DNA of 64,000 bases from Utricularia gibba (lineage: Eukaryota; Streptophyta; Magnoliopsida; Lamiales; Lentibulariaceae). This document shows positions 49,273 through 63,345 of this stretch, piece by piece. The stretch spans positions 7,793,501 through 7,857,500 of the forward strand of contig CM007989.1 of NCBI GenBank assembly GCA_002189035.1, in the 5' to 3' direction. The notes beneath the pieces are model-generated. The model made no database searches and was not told the origin of the DNA. It was given only the letters and a program-made list of their open reading frames with translations. Each line of letters begins with the position of its first letter. The stretch's first letter is position 1. Made by a program: the position numbers and the translations under genes.

Positions 49273-50827
49273 CTAGAGCTTGACGACTTCCGGGATGACG
49301 ACGGGATACTTGTGGATGCAGTCGCTCCAGGGGCCGTCGACGGGGGGTTCGATGACGCGGTTGCATCTCAGGACGGCGCTGTTGCACTTGAAGCCGCCGC
49401 CGAACCCGATTTGCCAGATCCTGTCACCCTTCTTCATCCTCCCTTTCGCCTCGACGTAGGCAAGCGCGTACCAGACGGAGGAGGAGGACGTGTTGCCGAA
49501 CCGGTGGAGCATCATGCGCGACGGCTCCACGTGCTCCGGCGTGAGGCGGAGCTTCTTCTCTATCTCATCGATCACGGCCCGGCCGCCGGCGTGGATCAGG
49601 AAATGGTCGAATGCCTGCTTGAAGTCCGGGATGTACGGTCTCCACTTCGGATTGATTATCTTCCTTCCTATTAATGTCAACACAAACAAGAGCTGCTCCG
49701 ACGCAGGCAGAACCAGCGGCCCCACTGTCGCGATGTTGGTTTTCAATGCTTTCCCTGCAACATGCATCACCTGCCTTGACAGGTTTACCCCAACTTGGCC
49801 TTCTGAGTCCTCCTCCTGAAACAGGCATCTGTAACACGCATCGTCTGCACCTGTTAATCCAACGAAGTTCAATCCATTAGTAGGTATAACGACGATATGG
49901 GCTTGTTTTCTTGATATATGGGGTACCTTTATGGGTTCGGACGATGTGGAGGAGCTGGTATTTGGCACGGTGGCGATCGCGGAGCTTGTTGGAGAGGAGC
50001 ATGGCGGCGCCGCCGACGCGAAATAAGCAGTTGGCGAGAAGCATGGGTCGGAATGTGCCCATGTAGTTATTGGGAGTGACGATTTCCGTACTCACGACCA
50101 GAGCATACGAATTGGGATGCGCTTGAAGGCAGTCACGAGCCAGGTCAAAGGAGATCACGCCGGCGCTACACCCCATCCCTGAAAGGTTGAAGCTTTTGAT
50201 ATTACTCCTGAGCTTGAACTTATTCACGATCATGGCGGAAAGTGACGGCGTCGGGGAAAACAGGCTGCAATTCACCACCAGAATGTCGATGTCCCTGGGC
50301 TTAAGCCCCGTCTTCTTCAACAGATCATCGATGCAGGTGAACATCACCAGTTCGGCCTCCTCTCGGGCATTCTCCATCGTTGGCTTTGGGGGAATGTAAT
50401 GAACCGCCGGCGGCAAAAACGTTTCGTCCCCGAGTCCCGATCTTTCCAGAATCTTCTTCATGAAATCGACGCTCTCCGGGCTATCCTTAAAAGTATAGTG
50501 CGCATGCTCTATGAACGCCGCGAAAGGCGCCCGGAAGCTGATCGGTGGCTTGAAACAAGCGTAATCCACCACATAAATAGACCGCGGCCTGGAAAGGAAA
50601 TACACAGTAGCCACGAAGACAACAGCGAAAACAGAGCACAGAACATGAGTGGACTCGAAGTCCAGAGACTCCCAGACTCCAATTATCTCCGCCGCGCCGA
50701 GGCTGTGGAGCCTCACGCCGGCGGCAGCCACCATCGCCACCAGCGTGAGGACGATGAAGTTATCGACCAGACTCTGGTAACATGCCCTGAGGTACTTATG
50801 CTCCATTATCCCCGAGGCGGGCGGCAT
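49273..50827 (-). CDS. 3-ketoacyl-CoA synthase (KCS, fatty acid elongase condensing enzyme)
   Basis: Two exons on the minus strand, 49927-50827 and 49273-49850, encode 492 residues, the normal KCS length. The enzyme condenses malonyl-CoA with long-chain acyl-CoA in the ER to make very-long-chain fatty acids for waxes, suberin, sphingolipids or seed oil. Seen: two N-terminal membrane segments ([15 protein letters not shown] and [16 protein letters not shown]), [16 protein letters not shown], and the catalytic triad Cys 220 (SGMGCSAG), His 387 ([10 protein letters not shown]) and Asn 420 (HRFGNTSS). The join [11 protein letters not shown] is conserved in the family. The starting Met at 50827 fits; an upstream open extension (MLHLARKEEKR) lacks support. 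The tail after [13 protein letters not shown] ends [15 protein letters not shown] would not assign a KCS number. Confidence 0.95.
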
Positions 50828-50876
50828 TCTCTTCTCCTCCTTCCTGGCGAGATGCAGCACCGGAGGAGGAAGGAGA

Positions 50877-50984
50877 TTTAAAGACGGAAACTCAGGACAG
50901 CATCCTGGCGCATTGAATGCCGATGGGGCGAGACTTCAAATCCCATCCACACAGCATTCAGCTGGTTTAAAGACTGAAACTCAG
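50877..50984 (-). promoter_or_regulatory. Duplicated 19-bp box in the KCS promoter
   Basis: TTTAAAGACGGAAACTCAG at 50877-50895 and TTTAAAGACTGAAACTCAG at 50966-50984 differ at one base and are 89 bases apart. The nearer copy is 50 bases ahead of the KCS ATG. TTTAAA (a palindrome) could act as a TATA variant, so this may be a duplicated core-promoter element; that is inference. Confidence 0.55.
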
Positions 50985-54626: not shown

Positions 54627-55746
54627 ATGGAAACTGGAAAAACAAGCGTGCCCGCTAAATCATCTAAACCTCCATCATCACCGCCGGTTAGTGTAATTAA
54701 AATCATTTCTCCGGTGAAGTTGAATGTGGTCGGGGTACAATTGTACTTGATGAAAAGAATGTGCATCTGTATTTGCCTCACAGGAGCCGTCGGTGGCGCC
54801 CAAGACAACTGCATTTCCCGATTTGCTGAACTCTTCTCAGGTTATTCGCGTTCTTGTATTTCCTTTCTGTATGTTGCAGTTAGTTTTTTTTAGTCTTCTT
54901 TTTCTTCATGAAAGTATCACACAGTGACACCATTATTACGCACTAGTAGACTTCCAGTGATGCGGAGCCCGGAGGCACAGCAGTTTCCGTTCTGGCTGAA
55001 AACCTTGATCCTGGAATGAACTCGGGGATTCTTCTCTTGGGTCGGAAGATATGGAGGAGCAGGCAAAACCTCCTCAATCTACTGTTGTTCAATCCAGCAC
55101 TCCAACTGTGAATCCGCAGGTATGTTGTGCGGATTGATTTAGCTTCAGTTTCTGATACGCTGTTCAGGCACCTCAGTTTCTCAACGTAAAGAGGGTGTAT
55201 TGAACGCAAGCACGTCCTTGTATATGCGGCATTGCAGGATGATCGTGAACTGAAACGGCAAAGGAGAAAGCAATCTAACCGTGAGTCTGCTCGGAGATCA
55301 AGGCTAAAGAAGCAGGTAACTGAGGATGTTACAGTTAATTACCAATGGTGATGGTTTTTCCATGGTCTGTGCTTGCAAACTTGACTAGTTGCACAGCAAG
55401 CCTAGAATTTTTGCGGAGAATCGATGACCCTCTTGGTCATTTATCTGTTTAACAATTCCAGGCGGAGTGTGAAGAGCTACAGCAAACAGTGGATGCATTA
55501 ACTAACGAGAATTGCATGCTCCAAGATGAGCTGCGGTCGCTGTGGAAAGAGTGCGAGAAACTCGAATCTGAGAACACCTTTTTGAAGGTCAAGCTTAACC
55601 AGATACCTCCGTCTTCTTCTGTTGTGCTCCATAGCCTGATGGCACTGCGTATGAAACAGGAGGAGCTGACAAGGATTTCCCCCCGGGAAGCGGTTTCTGA
55701 TTCAGACAACAGCCGCTCCCCTTCACCAGCCAATGAAAGTAACTGA
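54627..55746 (+). CDS. G-box-binding-type bZIP factor with shortened N-terminus
   Basis: Five exons, 54627-54686, 54784-54840, 54950-55119, 55238-55315 and 55462-55746, give about 216 residues. The basic region (about 97-122) reads RKQSNRESARRSRLKKQ with the invariant Asn 110 and Arg 118, and is followed by Leu-rich heptads (CEELQQTVDALTNENCML, LESENTFLKVKL). The intron after RLKKQ is conserved in plant G-box factors. The N-terminus keeps the SSKPPSSPP start of the GBF MFMR region and a short AFPDLLNSSQ piece. It lacks the long Pro-rich activation segment and most of the usual 300-400 residues. Exon 3 is one base short at the G run 55024-55027: the frame must change there for SSLGSEDMEEQAKPPQST to join the basic region. 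This is likely a sequence error, or else a pseudogene. Confidence 0.8.
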
Positions 55747-58203
55747 CTTTGAAGAAGCAACTTGTTAGGAGAGCACGTCCTCTTGATTGTGGAGCAATGT
55801 TTCAAGGAAATTGGCGTTTTCCACAACGAGAGTCTTGAACCGCCTTTTTGGTGCCAAGCAGCAGCGTGAACTAGAGATACATAGCCAACAAGCAGGCATT
55901 TTCCTGAGCTGTAAATGATCCAGGAACTTGAGTAGTATGGTAACAATGTTGTCTTGTTTTGACCGAGAGATGGGTAAAAGTTTGATCTTTTGAACATCTG
56001 GGATCCGATTCGGTATCGCCATTGGACATCAAAGCAGCAGGCCTTCCATGACAACAAAGCGGCATTTCAGCTTGGCGTTTCACTACTTTGGAACCCTCTG
56101 ATCTGCACTTCCCTCAGCAAACAGTTAGCCTGAAAATCAGTAAATTCGTTGGGCTCAGCCCCGCCGCCTGACGGCCCCCATCGTCTCCGTGATCTTCGTG
56201 TACAGTTCATATGTTTCTATTCCTCTCACAAGCATATACCGCCTCTCAGCTCCTGGGAGAATCCGCCGGTAGAATGCTGACACGCCGGCGCATAACCATA
56301 TACCTGAAAATCTCAAAGAAGCCCATAATCCACCCCTGGTATCTCAGGAAAGCAGAAAGCCCCCCTGCAAACTCTGGGAGATTAAGTTAATGGTTCTGCG
56401 GATCAGGCTGAAGATTTTGCAAACAGGGGAATCGTCGCCGATCAACCCCCAGGTCACTGATCGAAGAATCCCAGACCTCCAACTGGGGGATTGATAAGTA
56501 CATGATTATTTTCCAGTTGAAAAATCTCACCGGAATTGTTAGCGACAGGGCTAGGACATCTTCTAAGATCAAGAACAGATTTTGGAAGCAAGTTCCCAAC
56601 GGCGGCGGAGCAACCGTGGTGGTAACTGGAGAACTCAAGCTCCCGCTCTATGCCGCTATGATGTATGTTTTACAAATGGGCATTTTCATTTCGACGTGGA
56701 ATTTTAATCTCGGAGAACAGACGCCATTGGAGCAGAGATTCTCTTAGTAAAGCTCTAATCTTTTGACTGCCACGGACACATATTAGAAGCTTGCCGACGA
56801 AGGATCGCAAAGGAGACGACGCTTTTTCCCTTCCGATCGTCTCCATCATTCCCTCTCTATGGGCTGGATTGGATTTACACCCGTGGTCCAATTTGGGGAG
56901 CCCAACAATACTGGCCTCGGCCCAATCCCAAAACAACTCATTTATATAAATAAATGGAGAGTTGACCGTACGATCCAAATACAGAAATATTGACAAAAAC
57001 AGGGTTTGAAAAAAAAAAATCTTTAGACAAACACGGGTTTGACTTGTTCTCCACTAAGACAAGGATGACGTGGATTTGCCACGTGTAATTAATCATGAGT
57101 TTGAAAAATAATCCTTACACAACCCTATTTTTCAAACCGACTTTGATGGAATAGACCCTAAAATAAAAAAAATATTAATTAATGCGTTTTCATATATCAT
57201 TCTAATTTCGGAAGATTCAAACGAGCACATTAAAAGTATATTGTTTTATATTATCAAACGAAATAATTTTACACTTCAAAATTTAAAATTGATTTGATTT
57301 TATATAATTTCAAATTACATGATAGCCCAATATTAAAATAAAAAATATCAAAGATAATTATTTTTATTATTCAAAATATCACATCAATTAGAGGCTTATC
57401 TATTGATTAGACCGCCAAATTGGCTGCATTCGTCTGGTCAAATGATCCTCATCAAATTCCTATTTAATAAATAGGAATAATAATTTAGAAAACGCGGATT
57501 GAAATTGTCTGCTTTAAGCGTTGCCGTCGTGGAGATGATGGTGAGGGTTGCTCGAGTGACTGGGTGTCATTCAAAAGGGACGGCTGGAGTTTCTGCTTTC
57601 TACGCCCTCTGCTACTTGCTTGATGGCCACCCACATCATCGTCGTTTCCCATCAAAAGTAGATTGCTGTGCTCTCAAGTTATTATCCCCACTTGTTCCAT
57701 TCATGACCGTCGTGGATTGCTGGCAACAAAAGAAACGTATTTGCTTCTGAAGTGGGAGCCAAAACTTGCATTTCCTCATCGGAAATACTGTGTTTGTGTT
57801 GTTTCTCTTTGGATGGTTGGACTTGCCGCCTTGATCAGATATATGTTCCCGTTTGTTGGAAACCTCCGGTGAACGACGGAAACTCTTATTGAGTGACAAA
57901 GAGAGGTACCCAGTTTGTTCTTGTTCGTTTGCTATGCTTTTATTGACAGGGTTTGTCTGCCTTATTAGAAAAAGGGGTAAGTAGCCAGAGCTAAATCACT
58001 TGCAGTTCATTTGACCGGCTGTTGATTCTGAACATGTGGTGCAGAATGATCGACCCTGTTCGTTGTGAATATGGTTTATGGATGGTTTGGATAAGAGTTT
58101 GTTTTTTATGTTGTGCTATGAAGTTTAGGATACGACTTAGAAAAAAATTACATGATGTTTTCTCTTGCAGGAAGCACAAAGCTTATAGGAACTCAATTTT
58201 TTC
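55747..58203. other. Intergenic region with unassigned coding-like frames and PUB5-like leader
   Basis: bZIP 3' flank to about 56100. On the minus strand, 56155-56300 and 56387-56640 hold protein-like frames (listed separately). 57000-57480 is AT-rich. 57500-58203 looks like leader of the next gene, with a probable leader intron ending at the CTTGCAG before 58171. Confidence 0.4.
56155..56640 (-). pseudogene. Protein-like minus-strand segments, possibly a decayed or unannotated gene
   Basis: Reading the minus strand, a frame ending at 56155 gives AFYRRILPGAERRYMLVRGI followed by ETYELYTKITETMGAVRRRG and a stop. An adjacent frame just upstream gives EFAGGLSAFLRYQGWIMGFF. Further upstream, 56387-56638 is open. 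The composition looks coding, but the pieces sit in different frames with no clean splice sites between them. I do not recognise a family. It could be the 3' end of a real gene, a pseudogene or chance. Confidence 0.25.
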
Positions 58204-60793
58204 ATGGGAAATGATGTTGCAGCTGTAGATGGACTCATATCACATCAAGCTATTAAGGTATCAACACCATTTTTCAACTCCGGATTATCCTCCTCCACTT
58301 TGCATAATGATGTTGCTGCTTCACACTCTTCTTCAATTTCTTGAAACCTTCTCATTCTAATGATTCAGTTCCTTCTTTTCACAATGAATGTTCAGATTAT
58401 GGTTGTAACTATTATGTGAAAAAGTGAATCTTATCTATCTGATTGTGGGTTGGTTAATCAACTGAAGTTCTTTTAGGTATGTTTATTTATGACCGCAGCT
58501 GTGTATACAGGTGCATGCTCAATTGTGTTCAGAGCTTGGGAAATTAATTGACAAAGTTTCAAGAATTTTTTCAAAAGTTGAAGCGGTTCGCCCAGGATGT
58601 GCATCTGGGATAGAGGCACTATGTCTGTTGAACAATGGAATTGTCAAAGCCAAGTCCCTGTTGCAGCAGTGCAGTGATTCAAGCGTGCTCTATCTGGTAG
58701 CTATATTATTTAGTGTATATATTTTTGGGTTTAGACTCGTTATGGAGCTGTTGTCACACTGGATTGTCTTGAAACTTTTTCAGGCACTCACCGGAGATGC
58801 CGTTCTATCCAGATGCAGAAGGTCCAAGAATTTGTGGGAGCAGAGTCTGAGCCAAATTCAGAATATGGTCCCCGCATGCTTGCTACAGAGGTAAGCCACC
58901 AGGGTCCAAGTGAACAGAAAATAGGGAATAAGATGACTAGGAAAACAAACATTTTTTTTTGTTTCCTAATGATACATGGTTTGCCAGATTTGTGGGATTA
59001 TTGCTGATCTAAAGGGTGCCACATTTTGTTTGGATGCCCGAGAGGCAGAAGCTGGCCGGGTTCTTCATGATTTGCTCTGCAGATATGGTTCTTCTGTGGA
59101 TTTTCTTGAGGATTATGCACTCTCCGCCATTAGCACTATTTCCACCATGTTGCAGCTTTCCACGAAGAAGGCTCTTCTCATTGAAAAAAGATCAATCAGA
59201 AAGTTATTGGATAAAGTTGATGAAGGTAATAAAAGTAAGAGGAACATCCTCCTGTTCTTCCTAAATCTTTTAAAAGCCTATGAAAGGACACTATCAAGTG
59301 AGCCAAGGGACAGTGGTGCATCAGGTGATGCTGTTCCTTCAAAATGCAGAAGCCGTATCTGTTCAACTAGTGAGACAGAACTCTCTGAGACGTATAGTTC
59401 ATGTGAAGATCAGAGTAACATGACAACGGAGCCTCTGCAAACCGGTGAATCCATATGCTCTTCCTCTTCAAGGTGTGATCCTGCTCTCATGTCGTCAGAC
59501 CGAGCATGTGAAGGCAAGTGGATCGAAAAGTGGCTGCATAGAGAGGATAACATCTACCTGTCTGAGTTGAATACGGATATGGAGAAACTAATCTTGAAAT
59601 GCTCCTCCCCAGGTTATCTTGCTAATAGAGACCTGAATGTTGAAGATGCATCAGCTAAATCGATGAATCATGCATCAAGTCTTGGCAGTTCCATGAATGA
59701 TCTGATTCTTCCTCTGGATTTGAGTAACACTTCAACAGAATCTGGTCATGGTTTTGGTCTGCCTACTGATAAGATACGCAGCGGTGTAAACTCATCTCAC
59801 AGACTATGCACAGACTTCGTTTTGAGCTTCCATAGGCTTTCTTGGGATTCACGGTGTAGAGCAATCAAAGATGCCAAGATACTTGTTATGGACAACAGCC
59901 AATCCTTGTCTGAGATTCTATTAACAAATTTAGTTGGGGTTGTGATCAGATTCTTGAAGGATGCTTGGATGTTCCTCGACATGGAAGCACAGAAGACAGG
60001 ATGTCTCTTGCTTCTCGAGATTGTGCAGAAATACAACAGGGAGGAGATACCAGCATACATGACAGAAGATGGGTATGGTCTGCTGGCATCGTTCCTGGAT
60101 ACAGATGTCTCTGCACAAGCTCTCACCATACTGGAGGCATTGTCCTCCCGCCAAGAGTGCTGCCCTGACATCGCAAAATCTGGTGCTCTTGCCGGAATCT
60201 CCGCTGTACTTGATGGCAAGATTCAGGATTTGCTCTCACCTTCCTTGAATACACTGATGAATGTGTCTTCCACCATCGATTTTTCTCCTTACATTTCCCT
60301 CCCGGAGCTGACCCAGAAGCTGATCCGCCTTCTGGAAGATACTACCACACTAACAGTTCCATGCATGGCCATTTTGAGTAATCTGTCCAAAACAGCAGAC
60401 GGGCGGAAGTCGATCGCTGAAACGGAGGGGTGCATCGCGTCTGTTACAAACTATCTGGAACAAGAGGATCAGGAGCTCCAGGAACATGCTGTTTCTATAC
60501 TTGTCTCACTGTGCTCAAATGGGGCAGACTACTGCGCCATTGTCATGGAGGAAGGCGTCATCCCAGGGCTCGTCGGCGTCTCCTCCACCGGGAACACCAG
60601 AGCCATAGCCATGGCGGTGGAGCTTCTCAGGATCTTGAAAAATGAATTCAGCCCCACCGGAGAAAGGGTTGCAAGAGACGCCATCATTGAATCAAACAAA
60701 CCATGCAACGTGACCACTCCTTGGAGCAGCCGGGGTGTGTGGAGTAAAATTTTGTGCAGACCAAGCGTCAATAGTGTAAAGAAGAAATGGTAG
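58204..60793 (+). CDS. PUB5-like armadillo-repeat protein with eroded U-box
   Basis: Four exons, 58204-58257, 58511-58696, 58784-58890 and 58988-60793, give about 717 residues. The N-terminal UND-like region (LCSELGKLIDKVSRIFSKVE, ARPGCASG-type RPGCASGIEALCLLNN, KAKSLLQQCSDSSVLYLALTGDAVLSR in parts) and the C-terminal ARM repeats (about 390-680) match plant U-box protein 5-type E3 ligases. Where the family has its ~70-residue U-box, only about 30 residues remain (around 288-320: GKWIEKWLHREDN then LNTDMEKLILKC). They match the second half of a U-box with the N-terminal loop and Cys-Pro turn missing, so E2 binding and ligase activity are doubtful. Exon 3 lacks one base in the C run 58870-58873; adding it restores VPRMLATE|ICGIIADLKG across the intron. 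Confidence 0.88.
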
Positions 60794-60837
60794 CTTAAGA
60801 AATGGTTTTTTTTTCTATTTAGCACATCTCCAGACTT

Positions 60838-60854
60838 GCTGGAGTAGCTCAGTT

Positions 60855-60887
<33 letters not shown>

Positions 60888-60911
60888 AAGGTTCAAGCCC
60901 TTCCTCTAGCG
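60838..60911 (+). tRNA. tRNA-Asn (anticodon GTT)
   Basis: A 74-base cloverleaf without intron. The acceptor arms GCTGGAG and CTCTAGC pair over seven positions with one G-T wobble, leaving a G discriminator base. The D arm has AGCTCAGTTGGTTAGAGC. The anticodon loop reads CTGTTAA with anticodon GTT. The T arm GAAGG/CCTTC encloses TTCAAGC. A and B box promoters are intact, and a T5 tract about 10 bases downstream is a pol III terminator. It begins 44 bases after the stop codon of the PUB5-like gene, on the same strand. Confidence 0.97.
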
Positions 60912-63345
60912 GGGGCATCTTTTTGTGATAATCACAATAATGATTCCTTTTAATGTTATTTTCACTATTTTCAAATATTGGGAAAATTGTTCATCATTAT
61001 TATAAATTGATCACAAATATTTGATTTCCACTTTATTAGTATTCATCAATTTTATATAAATAATACTCATTAGCAAGTTATTTAAAAAATTGGTAAAATT
61101 AGTCCTCAATTAATCATATCTAGTTTTTCAATAATTGTAGATTAATTATACACTTAAAAACAAATTATGCCAAGTACATGGTAAACTTTGAGAATTAATA
61201 ATATAGATACATCAAATTTTAGATGATTGATTTTGTCAATGATGACCAATTACATAAATTATATTAAAAAAATTAGGACTAATTTGTCATCATATTAAAT
61301 ATTGGGGTTTTTTCTGTAATTTTATTATTTATTTATTTATTTATTTATTTATTCATTAAAAAATTGGAATAAATTTATTTAATTGGTCAAAAATTGGGTT
61401 GTTGAAATTGAAAAAAAAAAGGCTATCAGGCAGCGGTTACTTGTCCGAAGGGGCAAGACATTGCCTGCTTCGACTCTTCACATTTAATTTAATGGAATTC
61501 CTTAATTAATTAATGGTTCGAACCCCCGTCACATCCATATTTTAAAATAATATTATTCATAATTTTTCTTGTATAAATGATCTTTTTTTCTAAATCTTAT
61601 CTTCATTTAATTTTTAGCTCATAAGTCGTTTGGTAGTCGATTTTAAATGATTTTAATAAACGATGTTGTTTAGTAGATGATTTTAACAAGATTTTTGCTT
61701 TAATAAATAATTTTATATAAGATGAAAGAAAAATAAGATATGGGATTATTTTATTTAAAGAATGGTGTTATATTTTGTTTTGGACAATAATATTTCTAAA
61801 ATAATTATGTAATTACCTTCAATAGCTTTTTATATTACTTTAATTATAATTTACATTCTAACAAATTTCTTCTCTTTTATCATTAAATATATTTTTAATA
61901 CATATCAATCAAATATATTTTTTTAAATAAATAACACTTAAACATACACTTAATGAAATTTTAGCGTACTTAATCCATCTTTAAATACATTTACTGATTA
62001 CCCGCTTGGGTTATTAAATGGTAAAACACATCCTAAAATATGTTTAAGAAAAGTCGCGGTCAAAACTCCGGGAAATATCTTCCACAAAAAATCCCCCCTA
62101 CAAACCGCCTCAAAATATCTATAAATAAATGCTTCGTGTAATCACGTGCTCATTTGGATTCAATGGATCCGAATAAAGAAATAAATGAACATTAATTTTA
62201 AAAAATATATTTATTATTTTTAATTTTCTTCTTTTGTGGAGTGGCGGGGACGCCAGGGCATTGCTTTACTTTGCACTCACGAAACTTTAAATGCCACTCA
62301 CCGCCTCCACAAGTCAAAGACCCGCCTTTTTCCTTTCAAATATAATATCTCAATAATCAATTTCCCTTTATTTATTTCTTTTTTTTAAACAAAAATAATT
62401 TGAAAATTATTGATATATACATATATATATACAGTGTAATTAAAATAATTATAATAAATGGTAGAAGTTTTTGAAAGAAAAGTCTAATATTATATTTTGC
62501 CATTGTATTATTAATTAAATCGAATTAACATCAATTTTTTATTTTGATTAAGAAATTATTTACATACATAATCTTTATTAATAAATATCAATACTTATTA
62601 AATATGTAAATAATATGATATAATGATATCTTCTAAACCGTGATAATACACAATATTCCTAACATATTATTTTGAAACTCGTTTCAAACCGATTGTGTTG
62701 GTGCATGAAAGGATGATAGTCCGATTTGATCAAGATTCGATTCTATTTTTGAAATTCAGGATTTGATCCGATTTAATTCAAATTTATGATTTTTTAGATT
62801 CGGATACAATACTTTTTTACACAAAATTAAAAAATTTTGAAATTTAGATATTTTTTTTAAAACAATGGTTCAAACTTGAATTAATTGATTATATTAAAAA
62901 AATTAATTGAGGAGGGGAAAAAAGGAATTTGTTGATGGGCCAAAGGAGACTTGTTGGGAAAGAAAACGCAGAAAAGCAAAAAAGGGTAGGTGGAATTTGG
63001 CTTGCCGTAGGCAGCCCACCCCATCGGCGGGGCGCCATCAGCGAAAGATGGGGTTTTTTTGGGGGTCCATGAGGAGGAAACCAACAATCGAGAAACAGCT
63101 CACGCCTCCTCCTCCTCTTCTCGTGCATTCCCGTCGCTTGCTTTCATTGATGTTATCGATTTCCGTGTCAAGCAAGCATCATCGTCACCACCCAATTCCC
63201 CCATTTACTTCCAGTGGGCGATAAAATCTCTTTTGCGATTCGTTTGGTCACTTGATGGACCCATTCCTCCTCGCCTTGTGATTTACCCTTCTCCTTCTCT
63301 CTCCCCTTCATCTCTGTGTTCCCCTTTGTGTTGGTTTTCTTAGAC
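60912..63345. other. AT-rich intergenic DNA and NAC gene promoter/leader
   Basis: Long AT-rich stretch with a (TTTA)n tract at about 61322-61353 and no gene recognised. From about 62900 the sequence becomes GC- and pyrimidine-richer, with CT-rich stretches near 63280-63330 typical of a plant 5' UTR leading to the NAC start. Confidence 0.55.

Follow-up and report, generated by a model that had tools for sequence, protein, structure and literature searches.

A PUB5-like ARM-repeat gene of Utricularia gibba with an eroded U-box: a possible ligase turned binder

Introduction

The U-box is normally the best conserved part of plant U-box/ARM (PUB-ARM) proteins. A gene in which this part is worn down, while the sequence on either side of it remains readable, therefore raises the question whether it still encodes a working protein and, if so, of which kind. 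Such a gene is located in the window analysed here, a stretch of 64,000 nucleotides of the Utricularia gibba genome (assembly GCA_002189035.1, contig CM007989.1, positions 7,793,501 to 7,857,500 of the forward strand). An earlier note, made from the letters of the window, described the product as a PUB5-like ARM protein that has lost half of its U-box, and suggested a ligase turned adaptor or decoy, or a lineage-specific loss. The structure of the gene, the state of its U-box, the integrity of its reading frame and its relatives within the genome have been analysed to weigh these possibilities.

Gene structure and relatives

On the basis of splice signals and homology, the locus was modelled as a plant U-box/ARM protein gene of four exons, all on the forward strand, spanning 58204-60793 of the window. 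Exon 1 (58204..58257) was assigned from its ATG, GT donor and frame, and encodes the protein start MGNDVAAVDGLISHQAIK; it was also aligned to a sequence of AtPUB5, an alignment that serves as a lead only. Exon 2 (58511..58696), bounded by AG/GT borders, is 186 nt long, as is exon 2 of the nearest paralogue, and the whole-genome search gave 41% identity between the two. The equal exon length and this identity indicate the presence of the U-box N-terminal region, to which none of the Pfam models could be matched. Exon 4 (58988..60793) comprises the remainder of the N-terminal region, a linker, the U-box remnant, the ARM repeats and a basic C-terminus; it consists of 601 open codons and a stop, and is thus open throughout as claimed earlier, when 602 codons were counted. 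The claim that the N-terminal region is well preserved holds for its conservation but not for its reading frame, which is interrupted as assembled because exon 3 (58784..58890) measures 107 nt, one less than the 108 nt of its counterpart in the paralogue. A tRNA-Asn (GTT) gene is found on the same strand at 60837-60912, starting about 43 bases beyond the end of the PUB5-like coding sequence.

The PUB-type ARM-repeat region lies at 60005..60649 (+), where exon residues 340-554 match the ARM_PUB model (PF25598) with 37.6-38.1 bits for the exon and the whole protein, a score above the curated cut-off of 33, in keeping with the preservation of the ARM repeats asserted in the earlier note. Matches of the ARM part in the PDB are to designed ARM chains and to importin ARM chains. 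Of the 56 ARM_PUB matches across the genome, 17 lack an accompanying U-box match within 5 kb, the window's own being counted among the 17; these may be ARM-only proteins, split genes or decayed ligases.

The genome search covered 100.09 Mb in 516 contigs. The nearest relative over both the N-terminal and ARM parts is an intact gene (L046, C375:3089300-3094200), which is read as a PUB45-type gene. The two genes are colinear over the N-terminal region, the linker and the ARM repeats, and share the 186-nt exon 2 and the ARM_PUB match, whereas L046 possesses an intact U-box, a full-length exon 3 and an ARM part split by a further intron. Residue identity in the N-terminal region is 83/205 to an AtPUB5 sequence against 70/224 to the PUB45-type paralogue; this comparison, to be read as a lead only, would place the window gene with the PUB5 rather than the PUB45 group. 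No second PUB5-type copy was found in the genome, some stretches of which read N, and hence the intact twin for which the earlier note had left room did not come to light.

Loss of the U-box

The Pfam scan revealed no match to the U-box model PF04564, whether for the last exon (even at E 10), for the 85-aa stretch by itself or for the full protein, and the PUB45-type paralogue scored 67 bits with the same model in the same scan. The check with PF04564 asked for earlier thus confirms that the full domain is absent from the window protein. A further profile was built from 26 U-boxes of the U. gibba genome itself, and no U-box was found with it in any of the six frames of 57000-61500. There is therefore no hidden U-box exon in this region; a U-box in another frame is likewise ruled out, and with it the extra exon or alternative reading by which the earlier note thought that a full domain might be restored.

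A U-box remnant in which erosion has affected both E2-facing loops lies at 59447..59602 (+; ESICSSSSRCDPALMSSDRACEGKWIEKWLHREDNIYLSELNTDMEKLILKC), a stretch devoid of any Pfam match. The remnant, DPALMSSDRACEGKWIEKW, is weak and spans the middle of the U-box domain. With 2.6 bits and an E value of 0.0064 (for this protein alone), the own-genome profile places DPALMSSDRACEGKWIEKWLHRE opposite U-box positions 21-43, the stretch that follows the first loop and includes the central helix. The best local alignment to the U-box of the paralogue picks out the same residues, at a score equalled by 30 of 5000 linker shuffles, and in the six-frame search of 57000-61500 the score of the remnant is indistinct from noise. 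Because the score is so close to noise, most of the case for the identity of the remnant is carried by its position, flanked by the conserved N-terminal part on one side and by the ARM repeats on the other, which, together with the alignment to the paralogue, suggests a former U-box. The AtPUB5 sequence was aligned as well, as a lead only.

Alignment to the paralogue by eye places Cys-Ser-Ser opposite Cys-Pro-Ile in the first loop, with about 2 codons missing; a further stretch of about 8-10 codons, in which the second Cys-Pro would lie, has been deleted. The E2-binding loops are thus not intact but altered or deleted as compared to those of the paralogue. This agrees with the reported loss of the E2-contacting first loop and the Cys-Pro turn, as both E2-facing loops are gone. 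The description of a U-box of which only the second half remains needs correction, since the remnant occupies the middle of the domain. As judged from the alignments, the U-box is eroded throughout, and most strongly in the two E2-contacting loops, rather than cut in half.

Whether the frame was maintained during this erosion was addressed by a simulation of neutral drift, in which the 601-codon exon was mutated without selection and indels were optionally introduced at one-tenth of the substitution rate. At a substitution level of 5% per site, 6.7% of the copies remained open when only substitutions were allowed, as did 1.1% at 10%; with indels added, 0 of 1000 copies stayed open at either level. 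Because the U-box has changed by far more than 5-10% and yet the 601-codon exon is open, the simulation indicates that the erosion of the U-box took place while the rest of the frame was kept under selection; it does not bear on the present-day maintenance of the gene. That the U-box was lost while the remainder stayed open, as proposed earlier, is supported by the open exon as well as by the simulation.

The exon 3 frameshift

The shortage of one base in exon 3 as compared to the paralogue amounts to a one-base frameshift, which is absent from the earlier note. The likely site of the frame change is 58868..58878 (+; GTCCCCGCATG), between QNMVP and MLATE. Under normal splicing, the sequence as assembled yields a product of just 123 aa. 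A rescue by other splice sites of exon 3 was considered and rejected, as none of the GT/GC-AG combinations tried that include the exon gave a full frame.

As a gauge of whether the missing base is real, the GRAS genes of the genome were searched. GRAS genes usually lack introns; 25 of those found carry an undivided domain, and about 11 shift frame inside a domain that is otherwise almost continuous. Twelve broken GRAS genes were read, and in L078, L079, L080, L081, L085 and L088 (on C375, C142, C2, C1, C255 and C480) the frame changes at or next to a C or G run that looks shorter by one base than the family sequence requires. L083 calls for an additional base in a shorter C run, and the other broken genes read are less clear. 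The frame change of L080 falls in the string CCCCGC, which is the same string as in exon 3 of the window gene. Of the GRAS genes read, only L078, L079 and L080 have DELLA-like sequences (the 25 unbroken genes, which were left unread, may include intact DELLA-like ones); all three of them are broken. Within the window, the exon of a bZIP gene (54950-55118) changes frame at about 55020 around TCGGGGATT, a G run, with the bZIP_1 domain downstream. Most of these frame breaks in GRAS and bZIP genes are taken to be assembly errors, because it seems hardly credible that a single type of lesion should have inactivated all three DELLA-like genes. The long-read assembly of U. gibba was obtained from PacBio reads with HGAP and comprises 581 contigs with an N50 of 3.4 Mb (PMC5793159, a review). 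Elsewhere in the window, an FAE1-type ketoacyl-CoA synthase frame (49880-50935, reverse strand) is matched by its profile only to position 227 of 290, and a second frame at 49276-50091 on the same strand overlaps it.

Since single-base losses in C or G runs recur in other genes of the assembly, the base missing from exon 3 was most likely dropped from a C run during assembly, and a genuine inactivating mutation is the less likely cause. More generally, a single-base frame break in this assembly, taken without reads, should not be equated with gene loss; otherwise the three DELLA-like genes read would have to be counted as dead.

If the deletion in exon 3 were real, the gene could be a recent pseudogene, in which the U-box was eroded first, the lost base then ended the protein, and no function is left now. 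The short exon, the 123-aa product and the failure of every splice form retaining exon 3 to restore the frame are what such a history would leave behind, and bladderwort genomes are known for gene loss. However, there is no other lesion in about 720 codons, and under neutral drift a frame of 601 codons would not stay open for long; moreover, one-base losses in C or G runs are common in the assembly, in genes that are unlikely to be all dead. A recent pseudogene is accordingly regarded as possible but doubtful.

A working protein might also be reached by another route, either by skipping of exon 3, which keeps the frame and gives 681 aa, or by a start at the in-frame ATG inside exon 3 at 58876, just before the exon border, with the N-terminal region shortened. 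Such a route appears improbable, as the portion of the N-terminal region contributed by exon 3 is conserved, and the loss of the base is more simply explained by an assembly error.

Discussion

The reading favoured here, to which a probability of about one half is given, is that the window gene encodes a single-copy PUB5-type protein which has lost its ligase capacity and may persist as a binder acting through its ARM repeats. The U-box would have been worn down in frame, with the loss of both E2-touching loops. Because the loops that contact the E2 are gone, the protein would hardly be able to function as a U-box ligase. Its N-terminal and ARM regions have been retained, and if the protein works, it would most likely do so by binding partners through them. 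It could then serve as a passive adaptor, or as a competitor of intact PUB-ARM ligases, without ubiquitinating its partners. The eroded U-box could conceivably still fold and bind an E2, which would make the protein an atypical active ligase and would accord with the retention of DP, an SS pair and the IEKW helix, and with AtPUB5 itself, which has CT where the first CP is expected, but this is highly improbable with both E2-facing loops altered or deleted, and the fold model is unusable (AlphaFold2 on the last exon alone, as a single sequence, gave a pLDDT of 40.7, uninformative on the fold of the remnant).

The reading of a ligase-deficient ARM binder can be carried further, to the proposal that the only PUB5-type gene of the lineage passed from a ligase to a non-catalytic ARM binder under selection, the clade having become a regulator or competitor instead of being lost. 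This extended form is considered unlikely. If the gene is indeed kept by selection, it would represent a natural plant ligase turned binder that is not accompanied by an intact copy, in a plant whose genome is very small.

Neither ARM-only plant proteins nor CHIP U-box mutants turned up in literature searches directed at them. Comparable cases are found among PUB proteins. One is the Brassica oleracea AtPUB5 homologue Bol018658 / Bo7g118020, which is likewise of PUB5 type and without a U-box, was found by homology, and was kept by its authors as a transcriptome gene (PMC6947298). It differs from the window gene in that U-box-bearing AtPUB5 homologues remain in B. oleracea, and it is not stated in that report whether its lack of a U-box reflects a remnant or a truncated model (PMC6947298). 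Expressed by itself, the PUB13 ARM domain blocks the work of the ligase, and offers a model for a U-box-less ARM part as a competitor (PMC4449551); it is, however, an engineered construct and not a natural gene, and belongs to another PUB clade. HvARM1 of the Triticeae is a partial copy of HvPUB15 without the U-box, and is reported to bind the same partners and to influence mildew resistance (PMC6092874). Like the window protein, HvARM1 is a PUB-derived ARM protein in which the ARM part is kept and the U-box is lost, but it arose as a partial duplicate beside an intact parent, whereas the window gene retains a U-box remnant and has no intact PUB5-type copy that could be found. Losses of the U-box are already known in the PUB family, and the window gene adds another case.
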